Assembly (NCBI GenBank): GCA_934457235.1
Contig: CAKSHT010000074.1
Coordinates: 1 to 10,839 of the forward strand
DNA: 10,839 nt
Origin: an uncultured Oscillospiraceae bacterium
Lineage (GTDB): Bacteria; Bacillota; Clostridia; Oscillospirales; Ruminococcaceae
Reading direction: 5' to 3'
Positions 2,958 to 10,681 of the stretch are shown piece after piece. The notes under the pieces were generated by a model. The model ran no database searches. It saw only the letters and a list, made by a program, of their open reading frames with translations, and had not been told where the DNA came from. The translations under genes were made by a program, and so were the position numbers. How positions within the stretch are numbered: position 1 is the stretch's first letter; the number at the start of each line of letters is the position of its first letter.

Positions 2958-3776
2958 ATGGTTATCTATGCGGACGTGCTTCTTGCGGTCAATCTTTACA
3001 TAAACTACTTTCTCGTGCGCGGGACTGCACTGATACTCCGTAGGAAAATCACCCCGGTGCGCAGTCTGCTGGCTTCCCTTGTCGGAACGGCGGGAGCGCT
3101 GGTGATCTTTCTCCCGGAGCTTCACCCGGCCGTTTCAGTCATGTTCCGTGCTTTACTGGGGTTCGTCATAACTCTGGTCATGTTCGGCAGGCAGAAGCGC
3201 ATTGATTTTGCGATTTCAATGCTGTGCTTTCTGGCTGTAAGCTTCGCTTTTGCGGGCGGCATGATTGCGCTATGGAACTTTGCCGCCCCGCTTGGTATGT
3301 ATTACAGCAACGGCACGGCGTATTTCGATATTCCAATCGGTGTCGCCGCGGTCATAACTGTGGTGCTTTTCGGGGCTTTCCGGCTGACGAATTACATAAT
3401 TGAACGGCGCAGACCCGCACGGCATTCGCAGGTAAAAATCCGAAAGGACGACACTGAGATCACACTTGACGGGCTTGCGGACACCGGAAACTCCTTACGG
3501 GACAGCTTCACCGGAAAACCGGTCATTCTAGCGTCCAGGAGCGCAGTCATCTCCATTACGCCGCCGGAGGTACTGAACTACATCGCCGGGAAAACGGACG
3601 GACTGGAGGGAATACGGCTTGTCCCCTGCCACACGGTGACTGCCGACGGACTAATTCCGGTATTCCCCGCTGAGGTTACGATAAATGACAGGTGCGCCGA
3701 GGTTCTTATCGGCGTCGCAAAACAGGATATTTCCGGGGCGGACTGCATTTTCGATCCCGGAGCCATATCAAATTAG
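2958..3776 (+). CDS. spoIIGA: SpoIIGA, sporulation-specific pro-sigma-E processing peptidase
   Basis: SpoIIGA is a membrane-embedded aspartic protease placed at the sporulation septum; after a signal from the forespore (SpoIIR) it cleaves the pro-sequence from sigma-E in the mother cell. The 272-residue protein has an N-terminal half with about five hydrophobic segments (roughly 4-22, 36-54, 60-76, 85-108, 125-143). A cytoplasmic protease domain follows with the catalytic motif DTGN at 175-178, the aspartate being D175. Bacillus homologues are somewhat longer (about 300), so both the protease tail and loops are slightly compact. The ATG at 2958 follows GGTGAT, which matches the extended anti-Shine-Dalgarno. 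It lies 11 bp before sigE, its substrate, and the sigE ribosome site overlaps its stop codon. Identity is supported by both the motif and the neighbour. Confidence 0.93.
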
Positions 3777-3787
3777 GAGGCATCAGC

Positions 3788-4513
3788 ATGAAGAATTTTC
3801 TGAAAAAACTGCTGGACGAGGGGCTTGGAGCGTTCCTGAAATACGCATTTGGCGAAAGCAGCGGAGTTTACTACATCAACGGCTCGGAATCGCTTCCGCC
3901 GCCACTTTCCAAAGAGGAAGAGGAGGCCGCGTTCCGGCTTATGGAAACGGATTTTTCCGCCGCCCGTGAAACACTTATAGTCCACAATCTGCGACTTGTG
4001 GTATACATAGCAAAGAAATTTGAGAACACCGGCGTCGGACTTGACGACCTTATCTCCATAGGCACTATTGGTTTGATAAAGGCTGTGAACACGTTCAGCG
4101 TGCACCGCAATATAAAGCTTGCAACATATGCTTCCCGCTGCATTGAGAACGAGATACTGATGTACTTGCGCAAAACAAGCCAGCGCCGCTGTGAAGTGTC
4201 GATAGACGAGCCACTGAACGTAGACTGGGACGGCAACGAGCTTCTTCTTTCAGACGTTCTGGGAACGGACAGCGACTGCGTGAACGCCAGAATTGAGGAC
4301 GAAACCGAAAAAAAGCTGCTCCACGAAGCCGTCAGCCATCTGACTCCCCGGGAGCAGCAGATAATGGAAATGCGTTTTGGTCTGAAAGGAGGCAGAGAGA
4401 AAACGCAGAAAGAAGTCGCTGATGAAATAGGTATCTCTCAGAGCTACATCTCGCGGCTGGAGAAACGAATAATCAAGCAGCTCCGCGATGAACTTAACCG
4501 CGTCTGCAATTAA
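3788..4513 (+). CDS. sigE: RNA polymerase sigma factor SigE, mother-cell early sporulation sigma (pro-form)
   Basis: Sigma-E directs early mother-cell transcription during sporulation. The 241-residue protein keeps a basic, amphipathic pro-sequence of about 28 residues, then the family-typical [15 protein letters not shown] (27-41), the region where SpoIIGA cleaves the Bacillus protein. Region 2 runs from [16 protein letters not shown] (67-82) through [15 protein letters not shown] and the -10-recognition stretch ending [38 protein letters not shown] (141-160) is a sigma-E hallmark. Region 4 carries the helix-turn-helix [22 protein letters not shown] (206-227). The ATG at 3788 is chosen because an ideal AGGAGG (3775-3780) lies 7 nt upstream and the product aligns with known SigE N-termini; a longer reading frame from 3692 would only add residues overlapping spoIIGA. 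The Shine-Dalgarno overlaps the spoIIGA stop codon, implying translational coupling. Its stop overlaps the sigG stop on the opposite strand. Confidence 0.97.
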
Positions 4514-5280
4514 AAACGGTTCTTTATCTTCTGGAGCGCGCCCTTTTCCAGACGGCTGACCTGCGCCTGACTTATACCGATCTCCTTTGCGACCTCGACC
4601 TGGGTCTTTCCGCGGAAGAAACGCAGATTTAAAATGTGCTTCTCCCGGGGACCGAGTTGCCTTATCGCTTCTTTCAGTGATATCTCGTCCAGCCAGTTTT
4701 CATCGTCATTATGGTCGCCGAGCTGGTCAAGGACATATATCGTATCCCCGGAGTCAGAAAACACCGGCTCATAAAGCGATATCGGCTCACTGATGGCTTC
4801 CAGCGCTATCACGACTTCGGAGCGCTGCGCGCCTATCTCCTTTGCAATAGCTTCAACTGTTGGCTCACTGCCGTTCTTGGTGGTGAGCTTTTCTCTTGCC
4901 TGCATTGCACGATATGCAAGATCACGGACAGAACGGCTCACACGAACCGGCGAATTGTCCCGCAGATATCTCCGCAGCTCTCCCTGTATCATCGGAACGG
5001 CATAGGTGCTGAACCGCACCGGCTGCGTGATATCAAAGTTGTCTATCGCCTTGATGAGCCCTATGCACCCGACCTGGAACAGATCGTCCGGGCTTTCTCC
5101 CCTGCCTGTGAAACGCTGTATCACGCTCAGCACAAGACGCAGATTGCCGTTGATAAGCTCCTCGCGCGCCTGCATATCACCGGTTTTCACCTTTTTAAGC
5201 AGCTCCATTTTCTCGCTTTCACGGAGTACTTTCAGCTGGGAGGTATTGACTCCGCTTATCTCAACCTTGTTATAATACAA
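4510..5280 (-). CDS. sigG: RNA polymerase sigma factor SigG, late forespore sigma
   Basis: Sigma-G controls late forespore genes such as those for small acid-soluble proteins and germination. The 256-residue product begins [19 protein letters not shown], which aligns end to end with Bacillus SigG. Region 2 includes [14 protein letters not shown] (44-57) and [19 protein letters not shown] (65-83); the LINGN context (sigma-F proteins have a different, acidic residue there) argues for sigma-G over sigma-F. The region 4 helix-turn-helix is [21 protein letters not shown] (226-246). The start codon is TTG (5278-5280), accepted because of this alignment and an AGGAG ribosome site at 5287-5291 with 6-nt spacing. 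Only weak alternative starts exist. The gene is inverted relative to sigE, unlike the tandem spoIIGA-sigE-sigG order of Bacillus. Upstream lie a sigma-F/G-like promoter and a large inverted repeat covering the ribosome site. Confidence 0.96.
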
Positions 5281-5388: not shown

Positions 5389-6252
5389 TCACACTGACTC
5401 TTTTTCCGAGCCCTTGCCTAGCTTCTCAACCAGAACGGAGGTCATCACGCCGAACAGCAGGCATACAAATCCGTATCCGGTCTGAAGATTGAATCCGAAA
5501 TCCGATGGAAGTATCGCGTAAACCGAGCCTATGACAAGTCCCATGATGGCGCTGTACGCCATAAGCCGGAACTTCTTCATCAGTGTGGAGATGATCTTAG
5601 CACCCAGGATTATTCCCAGTACAACGCCAACTGCAACAGGTATGATAACGTAGAAATTAAGGTCGTTTATCTGTATTGCGGAAATTACCGTCTGATAAAC
5701 GCCCAGCAATAGCATAACGAACGAGCCGCTGAGTCCCGGTATTATCATTGCGACCGCCGCGATGAACGCGAACATAAGCAGCTTGACGGTCATTACCGGA
5801 TCAAATCCGGATATCATTTCCGCTGCCTGCTCAGCGCTGCCCATAGCATTCTGGAGCATTGCAAGACCTACCACGAGCGCGCCGGAAATAAGGAACGGAA
5901 CAATGCACAGCGGCTTAACCTTGTTCTCTGCCGTGCCCATGTGGTATATCATTGGTACGCTGCCAAGGATAAGTCCGATAAAGTACATATTCGTCTGCAC
6001 TCCGTAATTATCGAACAGGAACTTGATAAGCTTTGCAAATCCCAGTATACCTACGCCGGCTCCCACGCCGAAAAACAGCAGAAACACTATGTTCTTGATT
6101 ATCGCCTTAACGCCGGATATTGCTTCCGTCAGTTGGTCATAAATTCCGAAAACGACAAGCATCGTACCTCCGGAAACTCCCGGTATTACATTAGCGACAC
6201 CGAAAACCATGCCGCACAGTACCAGCTTGATGTATTGCAGTACCTTCTTCAT
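5389..6252 (-). CDS. DUF368 / PopT-family polyprenyl-phosphate (C55-P) translocase
   Basis: The 287-residue integral membrane protein belongs to DUF368. Members of this family (PopT) have been shown to recycle undecaprenyl phosphate across the cytoplasmic membrane so that it can be reused for peptidoglycan and other envelope polymers. The defining pair of repeated motifs is present: ANVIPGVSGGTMLVVFGIY at residues 20-38 and MIIPGLSGSFVMLLLGVY at 169-186, consistent with an internal inverted repeat of two membrane halves. About eight hydrophobic segments span the protein and the tail is short and charged. The ATG at 6252 is preferred because GGAGG lies just upstream and the family starts near this point; a TTG at 6270 would overlap the ATPase gene. 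The gene starts 10 bp after the ATPase-like gene ends, so they are probably one operon. sigG lies 108 bp downstream with no separate terminator. Confidence 0.92.
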   Translation of the reverse strand: MKKVLQYIKLVLCGMVFGVANVIPGVSGGTMLVVFGIYDQLTEAISGVKAIIKNIVFLLFFGVGAGVGILGFAKLIKFLFDNYGVQTNMYFIGLILGSVPMIYHMGTAENKVKPLCIVPFLISGALVVGLAMLQNAMGSAEQAAEMISGFDPVMTVKLLMFAFIAAVAMIIPGLSGSFVMLLLGVYQTVISAIQINDLNFYVIIPVAVGVVLGIILGAKIISTLMKKFRLMAYSAIMGLVIGSVYAILPSDFGFNLQTGYGFVCLLFGVMTSVLVEKLGKGSEKESV

Positions 6253-6262
6253 ATTTCCTCCG

Positions 6263-8722
6263 TCATTCAAATCTTATTATGGATCTTGCTATGAGATAGC
6301 CGAGAGGCGGTATTATGCCGGTGACTATCGAAATAAACGTTGCGAGTATGTCAATTCCGGTCAGCCCGAAAACGCTGTTCACTCCCGGTACGAACACAAG
6401 CAGCAGCGAAACCACCGCCGGTGCAAGAATACCGATAACCGCAGGCTTTTTTCCCTCCACAAGACCTATGAACGGATTCCCCGCCGGCATATTGATGAAC
6501 GTGAAGAACGATGTACAGAAACCAAATGCAAGCAGCGAGCAGCTGCGCGCGAAGTCCACATTGGAGCCGTTGTCGTTATACATGAACATATACGACGCTA
6601 TAGAAGCCACGCCGCACAGCACGCCGACAATCGCTGCAATTACAATGAATCTGCGGTTTATCTTACGCGACGATATGAAATCTGACGGCGGCATCATTCC
6701 CTTGCGGTCGGTACGGTTGTTGAGCCCGGCGAATGCGGTCAGAGGGAGAATGAACATCGTAAGAACTGCGATCAGAGCCGGATTAAGCATAAGCTGTGCG
6801 TCACCGAAAAGATTCAGCATATTCAGCAGGACAAGCGCGATATATCCGGAGATCATCGCGGCACAGGCACGCTTTATATTCCTGTGCACCTGGCGCGCGG
6901 AGGAAATCATATCCGCGATGGCTGAGAAATTATCGTCATGCATTATTACGTCAGCCGCTTCAAGCGCGCTTCCGGTGGAGGTGCCTGCAATCGTTATTCC
7001 GATGTCAGATTTTTCGATCGCCTCGGCGTCCTCGGCGCGGGTGCCCGCCATTGCCACTATCTCGCCCTTCTTGCGGAGCTGCTCGATTATATACAGTTTC
7101 TGCTCCGGTGTCACACGGGCATATATCTCGGCGTCGAGTTCAAGCTCGCTGCCGTATTTCACGGATTCTGAAATGCTTCTGCCGGTCACGGTCTTGCCGG
7201 AAAGTCCGATCATCTTGCCTGTCGCGGCAGCTGCCTCGGCGTTGTCCTCGGTGAACATCACCACGCGGACGCCTGCGCGCTGGCAGGTGCGTATCGCCGC
7301 CGGTACAGAATCACGCATCGGTGAGCTGAGCGCGGCAAATCCGATGAAAGTATACGCAAATCCGGCGGTCTGGTCGCAGTCACGCTCGTCTGCATCAGCA
7401 CATGCAACGGCTATGACCTGCCAGCCGTGAGAATAAAATTCTTTTTTCATCTTCTGAGCGACATAAAGTTCTTCGCCGTGGAATTTGCACAGCGGGAGTA
7501 TCTGTTCGGGAGTTCCCTTGATACAGTACAGCCTGGATCCTGCGACCTCCCAGAGGGCACCGCTCAAGTAATCGTTGCTGTCCGGTATCCGTTCAATGAA
7601 CTTGTACTGGCTGTAGACATCGGTTATCTTCTCGTCAAAGAACGCCGCACGGACCATCAGCGCACGCTCGGCTTCATCGGTGGTGTCCGGCTCGCATGCA
7701 AGCGCAGCGACCTTGAACATCAGCTCCTCGCTCGGCGTATAGATAGACTGCACGGAGATACTGCTCTTTGATATCGCTCCCTCTTTTTCAACACACAGCA
7801 CGGACATAGAGTTCAGCTTCTCTATGTCGGAGAGCGACTTTACTAGCGCGCTCTTTTCCGCCATTTCCGCGGAGCAGCGGGTATAGTACACCCGAATGAC
7901 CGTATCCAGACCCACCGGCAGGAAACACAGACCCAGCGTGATACCGCGCATTGCGGATTCAAGCACTTCGTTGCCATAGAGCATCCACGCGATCATTGAA
8001 ATCAGCGCCACGACCGCAGCCACAGCGGAGCACAGAGGAAGCAGCTTCTGAATTATCTGTTCCATCGCGGTATAATAGCAGTGCTTGGGCGGCTGCTCGC
8101 CGATTTTATGATAGTACTTTGTGTCAACGCCGGTGGCGCTGACTCTGCACACTGCGACTCCGGTGAGTATCTTCGTGCCGCTGTAAACGAACGTCGGCTT
8201 CAGCTCAGATTTTGAAATCCCGCCGGGATACTTCGCCGCCGGCTTATTGGAGCCGGTAAATATGCTTTCATCCGCAGTGAGATCGCGGCACTCCATTATA
8301 AGTGCGTCCGCGGGAACGCATTCGCCCGCCTGGACAACGATCAAGTCCTCCGGGACTATGTATTCCTTTTCGATCAGCTCCAGCTTTCCGCTGCGTATCA
8401 CACGGAACTTCACGGCGGTAGACTGCCTGATGTCGCTGAGCTTCTGGTCAGAAGATCTGCCAAGCCATATACTTAGCATACAGTAAGCTGCGTCCAGCAA
8501 TATAATTACGATTCCTGTGAATATATTCGTGAAAAAGCTCAGCACGCCCGCAACGAACATGAGTATAACCGCCGGGGACAGGAATAAACGCGCTGGCTCA
8601 AACTGCTCTTTCTGCTTCTCTTTTTTTGTATATATGTTAAGGCCGTATAACTCTGTGTTTCTCTGGATATCCTTGTCGTTCAGCCCGAAATAATCTTCCT
8701 TGAAATTAAAAAACTGCGCCAT
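6263..8722 (-). CDS. P2-type ATPase homologue with degenerate catalytic motifs (probable pseudoenzyme)
   Basis: The 819-residue protein has the full P2-type ATPase layout: short N-terminus, M1-M2 (about 47-88), actuator domain, M3-M4 (226-280), P and N domains, M5-M10 (about 618-812). Conserved anchors are clear: VQAGECVPADALI (130-142), KGTPE (402-406), YARVTPEQKLYIIEQLRKKG (534-553) and EAADVIMHDDNFSAI (588-602). The catalytic signatures are not: DKTGT reads EKEGA with Glu312 in place of the phosphorylated Asp; TGES reads TGSN (156-159); PEGL in M4 reads PVGL (269-272); DPPR reads SPMR (467-470); TGD reads TED (491-493); GDGVND reads GTRAED (560-565). The M6 NxxTD ion motif is also absent. 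The frame is uninterrupted, so this is not simple decay by frameshift. Ion pumping is unlikely; a regulatory or scaffold role is inference. ATG 8722 is chosen for its AAAGGA site; 8761 would add 13 residues. Cotranscription with the DUF368 gene is likely. Confidence 0.9.
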   Translation of the reverse strand: MAQFFNFKEDYFGLNDKDIQRNTELYGLNIYTKKEKQKEQFEPARLFLSPAVILMFVAGVLSFFTNIFTGIVIILLDAAYCMLSIWLGRSSDQKLSDIRQSTAVKFRVIRSGKLELIEKEYIVPEDLIVVQAGECVPADALIMECRDLTADESIFTGSNKPAAKYPGGISKSELKPTFVYSGTKILTGVAVCRVSATGVDTKYYHKIGEQPPKHCYYTAMEQIIQKLLPLCSAVAAVVALISMIAWMLYGNEVLESAMRGITLGLCFLPVGLDTVIRVYYTRCSAEMAEKSALVKSLSDIEKLNSMSVLCVEKEGAISKSSISVQSIYTPSEELMFKVAALACEPDTTDEAERALMVRAAFFDEKITDVYSQYKFIERIPDSNDYLSGALWEVAGSRLYCIKGTPEQILPLCKFHGEELYVAQKMKKEFYSHGWQVIAVACADADERDCDQTAGFAYTFIGFAALSSPMRDSVPAAIRTCQRAGVRVVMFTEDNAEAAAATGKMIGLSGKTVTGRSISESVKYGSELELDAEIYARVTPEQKLYIIEQLRKKGEIVAMAGTRAEDAEAIEKSDIGITIAGTSTGSALEAADVIMHDDNFSAIADMISSARQVHRNIKRACAAMISGYIALVLLNMLNLFGDAQLMLNPALIAVLTMFILPLTAFAGLNNRTDRKGMMPPSDFISSRKINRRFIVIAAIVGVLCGVASIASYMFMYNDNGSNVDFARSCSLLAFGFCTSFFTFINMPAGNPFIGLVEGKKPAVIGILAPAVVSLLLVFVPGVNSVFGLTGIDILATFISIVTGIIPPLGYLIARSIIRFE

Positions 8723-8881: not shown

Positions 8882-10681
8882 TTATACGCTCTGAGCTGTG
8901 TATAGCTTATAGTAATCTCCTTTTTTCGCCATCAGCTCATCGTGGGTCCCCGCTTCCGTTATACCCTTATTGGATACATACATTATCCGGTCGCAGCTGC
9001 GTATCGTCGAAAGCCTGTGCGCAATAATGAACGATGTCCTGCCCTGGAGCAGATGATTCAGTCCGTTCTGTAGATAACGCTCGGTCTTAGCGTCGATGGA
9101 CGAAGTTGCCTCGTCAAGCACAAGTATCTTCGGATCAGAAACTATCGTCCTTGCGAACGCTATAAGCTGCTTCTGTCCCTGGGAAAGTCCCGCGCCGCGC
9201 TCGTTCACCTCGGTCATGTAGCCCTGGGGCAGCGACATTATATAGCTGTCTATCCCGACTATGCGGCAGGCGCTGCGTATCTCATCGTCCGTGGCGTCAA
9301 GCTTTCCGTAGGCTATGTTATCACGGATAGTTCCGCTGAATATGAAGCTGTCCTGCAGCATAATACCCATCTGGGAGCGCAGCGAATGCAATGTCACCTT
9401 GGATATATCAGTTTCATCTATGTCCACTTCCCCGCCGCTAATATTATAGAAACGGGATATCAGATTAACTATAGTGGTCTTTCCCGCTCCGGTAGGACCT
9501 ACAAGCGCTATGCTCTGCCCCGCCTTTACGTCAAACGAAAGGTGCTCCAGGATATTTATGCCAGGCTCATACGCGAACGTAACATCGCGGAAGTGCACGT
9601 CGCCCTTTATTTCCGGCATTTCTGCCGCGTCGGGGATATCGTCTACAGTCACCGGCTCGTCCATCATCTCAAAGATTCGCTCCAGGTTTGCAACGGCGTT
9701 GATGAACGTGTTCATAAGGTTGGAGAGGTTCATCAGCGGCTGCCAGAAGCGCGCGGAATAATCAGTCATCGCGATTATCGTACCGAAAGACACAGCGCCT
9801 GCGCCCATTCCGAGAAGTCCCACGCCGAAAATAAACGCACGGACAACGATTGAAACAACATCAGTGCTCGGCCATACCAGGTTTGAAAACGCTACGGCGC
9901 GCATCCACGCCTTTTTATACTTCTTTGCAAGCTTATCGTTTATCTCCGCGTTTTCCTCCTCACGGGTGAACATCTGGGAGATTTTCACTCCGACTATGCT
10001 TTCATGGAGATACGCATTAAGATTGGAGCTTTTGTTGGATACCTGCTGCCATGCCTTGCGCTGTCCGTTCTTTATAATTATCATGATGAACGCATAGACC
10101 GGAAGTCCTGCCACGGTGACAAGCGCCAGCTGCCAGTTCACAAAGAACATGAATATGGTAATGAACAGCAGATTTATCATCTCAAGGATAAAGTTGATAA
10201 GTCCGTTGGTCATAAGGTCGGATATCGCGTTGATATAGTTGATTATACGCGTCAGTATCTTTCCATGCGGGCGGCTGTCGTAGTACTCAAAGCTCAGCCG
10301 CTGCATATGCTCAAACAGATCCTTGCGGATATCGTACACTATATCCTGTCCTACTTTCGTCATCATGACTGAACGTATCTTCGCGAACACAACGCTGATA
10401 ACAATGCACACCAGGACCGCAGCTCCGCTCAGAATGATGTATTTCACGCGGTCGGCAGGAGCTACGGCGGACGCCTGATCCACAGGTATCATGTAATTGT
10501 CTATCGCGTTCTGTACTATCATCGGCGACAGAAGCCCGATAACCGAGCCGAGCGCGCTTAGGATAAGCGACAGCGCGATACGCTTCTTGTATTTCGCCGC
10601 ATATACCAGCGAACGTTTCAGATGCCGTATGTCAAATGGGGTTTCAAGCACCTCGTCAACATCGAATTTGTTTCTTGCCAT
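8882..10681 (-). CDS. ABC exporter half-transporter, fused membrane and ATPase domains (catalytic half of a heterodimer)
   Basis: This 599-residue protein is a complete ABC exporter half: a six-helix type IV exporter (ABC_membrane) domain at about 30-335, then an ATPase domain at about 360-590. ATPase motifs are Walker A GPTGAGKTT (395-403), Q-loop Gln443, signature LSQGQ (499-503), Walker B ILVLDE with catalytic Glu524, and H-loop His555. The catalytic Glu and His are intact, but the signature deviates from LSGGQ. The ATG at 10681 has a perfect AGGAGGG site (10689-10695) overlapping the stop of the upstream half-transporter, so the two are translationally coupled and surely cotranscribed. 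The adjacent partner has Gln at the H-loop, giving one canonical and one degenerate ATP site, typical of heterodimeric multidrug/lipid/peptide exporters. Substrate cannot be read from sequence. The ATG choice gives the usual long N-terminal arm before the first helix. Confidence 0.95.
   Translation of the reverse strand: MARNKFDVDEVLETPFDIRHLKRSLVYAAKYKKRIALSLILSALGSVIGLLSPMIVQNAIDNYMIPVDQASAVAPADRVKYIILSGAAVLVCIVISVVFAKIRSVMMTKVGQDIVYDIRKDLFEHMQRLSFEYYDSRPHGKILTRIINYINAISDLMTNGLINFILEMINLLFITIFMFFVNWQLALVTVAGLPVYAFIMIIIKNGQRKAWQQVSNKSSNLNAYLHESIVGVKISQMFTREEENAEINDKLAKKYKKAWMRAVAFSNLVWPSTDVVSIVVRAFIFGVGLLGMGAGAVSFGTIIAMTDYSARFWQPLMNLSNLMNTFINAVANLERIFEMMDEPVTVDDIPDAAEMPEIKGDVHFRDVTFAYEPGINILEHLSFDVKAGQSIALVGPTGAGKTTIVNLISRFYNISGGEVDIDETDISKVTLHSLRSQMGIMLQDSFIFSGTIRDNIAYGKLDATDDEIRSACRIVGIDSYIMSLPQGYMTEVNERGAGLSQGQKQLIAFARTIVSDPKILVLDEATSSIDAKTERYLQNGLNHLLQGRTSFIIAHRLSTIRSCDRIMYVSNKGITEAGTHDELMAKKGDYYKLYTAQSV

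Follow-up and report, generated by a model that had tools for sequence, protein, structure and literature searches.

Within the 10,839 nucleotides of contig CAKSHT010000074.1 that we analysed (the window), from an uncultured Oscillospiraceae gut bacterium, the gene at 6263-8722 on the minus strand encodes a full-length homologue of the P-type ATPases in which the residues of catalysis and cation binding have been replaced. This pseudo-ATPase gene is followed on the same strand by a gene of the DUF368/PopT family, and the arrangement recurs at almost every related locus. We conclude, with a rough probability of 0.6, that the product is a P2-type ATPase that has been stripped of its phosphorylation and dephosphorylation chemistry and of its cation site, and retained to serve PopT as a dedicated partner that does not pump. 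Judging from its residues, the protein is very probably catalytically dead, and there is a good probability that it works with PopT; that it does so as a physical regulatory or scaffold subunit, forming a complex, controlling flipping and responding to a sensed signal, we infer with moderate confidence. The support for the partnership itself is strong; physical contact and a mechanism are further steps of inference. The features on which the argument rests are as follows.

6263-8722, minus strand: pseudo-P-type-ATPase gene (protein P0001), 819 amino acids; open reading frame, Pfam and NCBIfam matches, full-length homologues
8246-8257, minus strand: TGSN in place of TGES in the A domain, phosphatase Glu lost; motif alignment
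7892-7918, minus strand: segment PVGLDTVIR of membrane helix 4 (M4), PEGL Glu replaced by V270 and Arg277 gained; alignment
7775-7789, minus strand: EKEGA in place of DKTGT, phosphorylated Asp replaced by Glu312 (codon GAA at 7787-7789)
7505-7519, minus strand: KGTPE, N-domain Lys retained; motif alignment
7313-7324, minus strand: SPMR (within SSPMR) in place of DPPR, Asp lost at position 467; alignment
7244-7252, minus strand: TED (within FTED) in place of TGD, Asp retained and Gly replaced; alignment
7097-7120, minus strand: ARVTPEQK stretch, P-domain Lys retained; alignment
7028-7045, minus strand: GTRAED in place of GDGxND, Mg-binding first Asp replaced by Thr561, last Asp retained, Asn lost
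6746-6760, minus strand: TMFIL of membrane helix 6 (M6), cation-site Asn/Glu replaced by Thr655 and Asp by Leu659; alignment
5389-6252, minus strand: DUF368/PopT-family gene, putative undecaprenyl-phosphate translocase, starting 10 nucleotides past the pseudo-ATPase stop

The reading frame opens with an ATG at 8722 and contains no internal stops. Pfam finds E1-E2_ATPase (5.7e-27), HAD hydrolase (1.2e-8) and Cation_ATPase_C (3.7e-8) domains in the product, which scores 137.5 against a cut-off of 62.3 with the general NCBIfam P-type model TIGR01494 and falls far under the cut-offs of the other listed NCBIfam P-type models. The predicted structure has a complete P-type fold with A, N and P domains and membrane helices, and by domain architecture and fold the protein belongs to the P-type ATPase superfamily; it lacks each of the features of a functional member, namely the DKTGT Asp, the TGES Glu, the GDGxND and DPPR Asp residues and the M4/M6 cation site. 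The model is E1-like, with a template modelling (TM) score of 0.81 to the E1 Na,K-ATPase 8jbk and 0.57-0.64 to E2P entries, a resemblance that predictor bias may explain and to which we give no weight. In the portions of two accounts consulted (PMC10654040; PMC11977196), the DKTGT Asp of P-type ATPases is phosphorylated, the TGES Glu lies in the phosphatase motif and the fourth transmembrane helix (TM4) holds the canonical binding site; because all three are gone, the known P-type cycle should not run in the pseudo-ATPase.

A sequence-only reading of this DNA, made without database searches, had already placed Glu at the phosphorylated position and TGSN at the phosphatase motif within an intact 819-codon frame, and both motifs and the frame are as it described them, as are the non-catalytic anchors, with the lysines of KGTPE and ARVTPEQK both in place. 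The SPMR, TED and GTRAED substitutions also stand, with the refinement that TED preserves the Asp of TGD and GTRAED the final Asp of GDGxND. Losses that it did not list are those of the M4 PEGL Glu and the M6 pair, and to these is added the new Arg277.

To describe the family we distinguish tier 1, comprising 39 loci of the window type, from tier 2, comprising more distant loci. A GTDB genome scan returned 43 loci, including the 39 of tier 1, all in metagenome-assembled genomes (MAGs) named Oscillospiraceae, Ruminococcaceae or Clostridia, and a sample of 394 genomes from the order of one Oscillospiraceae MAG (G003) gave three tier-1 loci already among the 39 and 13 distant loci scoring 500-626 bits, in which the motifs have degenerated differently (EKTGT, DKSAV and DKSGT). 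At the protein level the family set has 160 members (P0001-P0160): 121 close members, which are the query and the 120 listed of 620 protein-search matches (54-99% identity, 815-834 residues), and 39 further members that were new among the 40 matches of a search with a distant member.

Position 312 is Glu in 120 of the close members and Lys in one, and Asp occupies it in 33 of the 160 family proteins, all among the further members. The TGES Glu (E158) and the Mg-binding Asp561 are each absent from all 121 close members and present in two of the 39 further ones, and the DPPR Asp467 occurs in none of the 160. The cation site has been lost too: M4 Glu270 is found in 0/160 family proteins as against 30/30 intact ATPases, Asn or Glu at position 655 in 0/160 as against 30/30, and Asp at position 659 in 0/160 as against 29/30, whereas position 277 is Arg in 158 and Lys in two of the family and neither in any of the 30 intact proteins. 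No family protein of the 160 combines E158, D312, D467 and D561, which occur together in all 30 aligned intact relatives. These counts indicate that the whole clade has in common the absence of the cation site and, with few exceptions, the absence of the residues for dephosphorylation and Mg binding. Lys542 and Asp565 are retained in all 121 close members. The N-domain contacts with ATP, which we take by homology to be Lys385 and Arg435, are eroded too, Lys385 being kept in none of the 20 tier-1 tree rows and Arg435 in three of 34 rows; Lys402 of KG.PE persists in 90% and 79% (tree rows). Loss of the phosphorylated Asp seems to have occurred on more than one occasion, with Glu taking its place in tier 1 and the EKTGT group and Asn in L134. 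Two further members (P0152 and P0153) have Asp at the Mg-binding position (TAD) and DKAGT or EKAGT, and are without TGES, DPPR and PEGL; they may represent stages on the way to the loss of catalysis.

Purifying selection on the gene is strong. Ratios of non-synonymous to synonymous substitution (dN/dS, Nei-Gojobori) are 0.033-0.137 in all listed pairs above 72% identity with finite dS, and the window gene compared with L001 gives a dN of 0.078 and a dS of 1.49. The sequence-only reading had proposed a retained pseudoenzyme instead of a decaying gene, to be checked by looking in related Clostridia for the same substitutions, for dN/dS well below 1 and for orthologues with intact motifs. The related Clostridia do carry the substitutions, and intact motifs are found in none of the 160 proteins; together with the purifying selection, this supports a retained pseudoenzyme and speaks against decay or an assembly error. 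Its suggestion of a role as sensor, scaffold or regulator can be sharpened, in that the gene is accompanied by a DUF368/PopT translocase of a lipid carrier, which is dedicated to it.

Phylogenetic analysis sets the family apart. The alignments were of 30 of the 121 close proteins (A1), of 11 of 13 tier-2 loci with four of tier 1, omitting L076 (start unclear) and L078 (masked letters) (A2), and of 54 of the 121 close, 11 tier-2 and 11 intact proteins (A3). In a tree of 64 chosen rows, including T2_L078 with its X letters, 34 degenerate proteins are split from 30 intact ones by a branch with a Shimodaira-Hasegawa-like approximate likelihood ratio test (SH-aLRT) value of 100; tier 1 forms one group, and the tree fixes no branching order among tier-2 rows. 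The split was unchanged in a second tree from which nine rows were dropped and to which six intact proteins were added, two of them paired with PopT. Intact P-type ATPases are also present in the 15 pseudo-ATPase genomes searched with A1, so the pseudo-ATPase does not stand in for them.

The proposed task of PopT-family proteins is to bring undecaprenyl phosphate, the lipid carrier of cell-wall building, back to the inner leaflet of the membrane. The consulted parts of PMC9876793 propose from genetics that the DUF368 proteins VCA0040 and SAOUHSC_00846 are undecaprenyl-phosphate translocases and discuss their energy source as open. The window PopT belongs to the same Pfam family (PF04018, 140.9 bits, cut-off 26) and carries both repeat motifs (IPGVSGGT and IPGLSGS), and scores 145.8 bits with the NCBIfam PopT equivalog NF052563, below its cut-off of 400. 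Clustering places PopT on the same strand in 35 of the 39 tier-1 loci, and a direct test finds it adjoining in 36, the other three ending at a contig edge. Among 54 distinct loci (the window, the 39 of tier 1 and 14 others, with L207 excluded as the contig of L039), 49 have PopT directly downstream, four reach a contig edge and one is without it, giving 49 of the 50 with downstream sequence. The gap between the genes has a median of 12 nucleotides and a range of -35 to 587, with start codons guessed by the script.

The linked PopTs also share their ancestry. In a tree of 88 rows the 49 of them form a single group (100/100), within which tier 1 and tier 2 are each a group; outside it lie 30 solo PopTs, which were the best-scoring loci of the G003-family search and not a random sample, and nine PopTs from elsewhere in pseudo-ATPase genomes. 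A second PopT was found in seven pseudo-ATPase genomes, outside the linked clade. A PF04018 protein is present in all 30 pseudo-ATPase genomes searched, compared with 74 of the 148 genomes of the family. The pseudo-ATPase and PopT genes look to have been inherited as a unit.

Pairing of this kind was sought at the loci of intact P-type ATPases. Among 83 such loci (81 distinct proteins, 78 with at least 700 nucleotides downstream, and L041-L043 excluded) none contains PopT, and no intact member of the pseudo-ATPase clade paired with PopT occurs among the loci read from 394 order, 391 class and 148 family genomes of G003, where the searches scored 2-6 candidates per genome and covered at most 30 loci each. 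Two genomes nevertheless rule out the broader claim that intact P-type ATPases never pair with PopT. In G234 (L217:5653-9123; L248) an intact Ca2+-ATPase-like gene of 870 codons, with LTGES, SDKTGT, TDPPR and TGDGVND motifs, is followed immediately after its stop by a DUF368 gene. A search of the 148 family genomes with this ATPase gave 30 loci, some of them the same genes as in the 83, all with the four catalytic residues intact, and DUF368 lies directly downstream in two, those of G234 and G892 (L252). Starting from the other side, two of 69 non-linked PopT loci, with flanks of mostly 1.5 kb, have an adjoining P-type ATPase, both being the same G234 pair. A candidate operon in G832 was rejected, its intact P-type ATPase lying about 6 kb from PopT on the opposite strand.

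These intact pairs resemble the window pair in having a P-type ATPase and DUF368 in tandem, but their ATPases retain all catalytic motifs and the M6 LTDS, are without the M4 Arg and fall within the ordinary PEGL/PEAL group in the second ATPase tree, and their DUF368 partners belong to another PopT clade, in which the second PopT copies of pseudo-ATPase genomes are found as well. Because both partners belong to other clades, P-type ATPases and DUF368 proteins have been joined more than once, and this repeated pairing supports a functional link between the two families.

Several known systems bear comparison with the pseudo-ATPase. LMCA1 (lmo0841) of Listeria monocytogenes, a P2-type Ca2+-ATPase and the closest solved relative by sequence, shares near-full-length homology, the A, N and P domains, the membrane helices (as modelled) and the KG.PE and P-domain lysines; unlike LMCA1, the pseudo-ATPase is without the phosphorylated Asp, TGES Glu, DPPR Asp, Mg-binding Asp, M4 Glu and M6 Asn/Asp, and has a new M4 Arg and an operon with PopT. 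The highest-scoring intact relatives, PEEFP-type P-type ATPases of Clostridia (among L088-L101, L104-L122 and L135-L140), are 24-27% identical to the window protein in A3, yet they have the four catalytic residues in 17 of 17 aligned, no PopT beside the loci read and a separate position in the trees. Among translocases, the linked PopTs form their own clade in the set compared, and the window PopT scores below the equivalog cut-off. A parallel to the proposed role is SUR1, an ABC transporter that became the regulatory subunit of a K+ channel: in SUR1/Kir6.2 a transporter-family ATPase regulates another membrane protein, although SUR1 has the ABC fold, retains nucleotide binding and is eukaryotic. 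KdpFABC, as presented in the consulted parts of PMC10654040, likewise pairs a P-type ATPase homologue (KdpB) genetically with a different membrane transporter, the channel-like KdpA, but KdpB is catalytically active, and the partner of the pseudo-ATPase is a lipid translocase.

In the mechanism that we propose the pseudo-ATPase would bind PopT through its membrane domain, and the retained cytosolic A, N and P domains would regulate the flippase conformationally or serve as its scaffold. Several observations weigh against this conclusion. Operon pairing speaks for shared function and not for contact, and the structure models are of single chains. The phosphorylation site is still Asp in 33 of the 39 further members and 10 of the 14 tier-2 tree rows, so that its loss is not universal in the clade. 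DUF368 also adjoins two of the 30 intact ATPase loci, and pairing alone is therefore no proof of a non-catalytic role. One genome (G865; L134/L194) has a pseudo-ATPase with Asn at the phosphorylation site and no adjoining PopT. Finally, branch lengths are large, and some rows of the PopT tree drew long-branch warnings. The G865 gene is the longest-branched degenerate copy, with LCVNKAGGI at the site, and the gene next to it encodes a PGA_cap family protein.

The same operon data would be expected if the two proteins were co-expressed and never formed a stable complex, the pseudo-ATPase acting independently as a sensor or a buffer of lipid, for instance by itself binding undecaprenyl phosphate or an intermediate of the cell wall. 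The new M4 Arg or Lys, present in all 160 proteins, could pair with a lipid phosphate, and P4 ATPases keep lipid headgroups in a TM4 cavity according to the consulted parts of PMC10654040. However, the partner is always of one PopT clade and not the second PopT of the seven genomes, which suggests matched parts, and we consider this explanation unlikely while taking it seriously. It is rather less probable that the protein is an unusual but active ATPase, phosphorylated on Glu312 (Asp in distant members) with altered Mg chemistry, and powering PopT as KdpB powers KdpA. The Asp of most tier-2 rows, the D561 of P0152 and P0153 beside their DKAGT or EKAGT, the universal Lys542 and Asp565 of the close members, the intact Ca2+-ATPase-like genes directly before DUF368 genes and the open energetics of DUF368 transport (PMC9876793, in the parts consulted) all favour it. 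Set against these are the losses across the 160 proteins, of the TGES Glu in 158, the DPPR Asp in 160, Asp561 in 158 and the M4 Glu in 160, together with the erosion of Lys385 (20 of 20 tier-1 rows) and Arg435; moreover, the intact ATPases that pair with DUF368 are of another clade. The existence of those intact pairs made us raise this probability slightly, and lower slightly that of the next explanation.

This holds that the two genes are passive neighbours, kept together solely by conserved gene order through descent. Tier-1 loci do share further neighbours, among them SigG in 27 of the 39 and SigE and SpoIIGA in 20, but SigG occurs in either orientation, the tier-2 pairs persist amid different neighbours, the genes are separated by a median of 12 nucleotides or overlap, a second and independent ATPase-DUF368 pairing exists, and the genes are seen apart in G865 only; we regard the explanation as very improbable. 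A decaying gene, an assembly error or strain-specific damage can practically be dismissed, for beyond the motif losses we found nothing in its favour, and 121 full-length close members, dN/dS far below 1 and 39 genome loci argue otherwise.

More tentatively than the dedicated non-pumping partnership, we suggest a two-part lipid-carrier flippase: in an ancestor of some Oscillospiraceae-related Clostridia a P-type ion pump may have been recruited to DUF368/PopT, ion transport and ATP chemistry then being lost clade-wide to leave a regulatory subunit, near-obligate, through which a signal from the cytosol would govern the recycling of undecaprenyl phosphate. The tandem intact Ca2+-ATPase and DUF368 genes hint that recruitment begins with a working pump. 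In some lineages the linked flippase also carries an extracytoplasmic carbohydrate-binding-like domain, and a complex of this kind may sense both sides of the membrane.

The other neighbours of the pair vary. Tier-1 loci have SigG/SigE/SpoIIGA, ClpX-ClpP-trigger factor or an ABC exporter nearby, and the 11 tier-2 loci have different neighbours and retain the pair. In the window a sporulation cluster at 2958-5280 combines two plus-strand genes, SpoIIGA and a sigma-E-like one, with SigG on the minus strand (NF006071, 413 bits, cut-off 372). A sporulation role suggested by these neighbours was dropped because the 11 tier-2 pairs sit elsewhere. At 8882-10681, upstream on the same strand as the pseudo-ATPase and 159 nucleotides from it, is an MsbA-like ABC exporter, and a similar exporter cluster is present in five of the 39 tier-1 loci. 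Four tier-2 loci (L198, L201, L203 and L204) have a gene of about 254 codons after PopT on the same strand, absent from the window, which Pfam assigns to the APH phosphotransferase family in both cases tested (L201 and L204).

Four cysteines of P0001 (266, 310, 400 and 412) are invariant in all 30 members of A1, one of them just preceding the M4 proline and another two residues ahead of Glu312. Across the 34 degenerate tree rows, the frequency of Cys266 is 97% and that of Cys400 is 100%.

Many enzyme families are known to include pseudoenzymes, and to our knowledge none has been described for the P-type ATPases. The sequence-only reading knew of no bacterial family of this kind, and none surfaced in the open-licence full text of PubMed Central (PMC). 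Within it no paper was found that couples P-type ATPases with pseudoenzymes or names both a P-type ATPase and DUF368, and searches on motif loss, on pseudo-ATPase or catalytic aspartate, and on undecaprenyl phosphate with P-type ATPases gave no described case among the papers listed. The database names 'cation-transporting P-type ATPase' and 'HAD family hydrolase' are misleading for proteins of this family. Should the two proteins really be paired in the cell, the pseudo-ATPase would be a candidate for the partner subunit of an undecaprenyl-phosphate translocase, and its family would provide a natural series for the stepwise loss of P-type catalysis.

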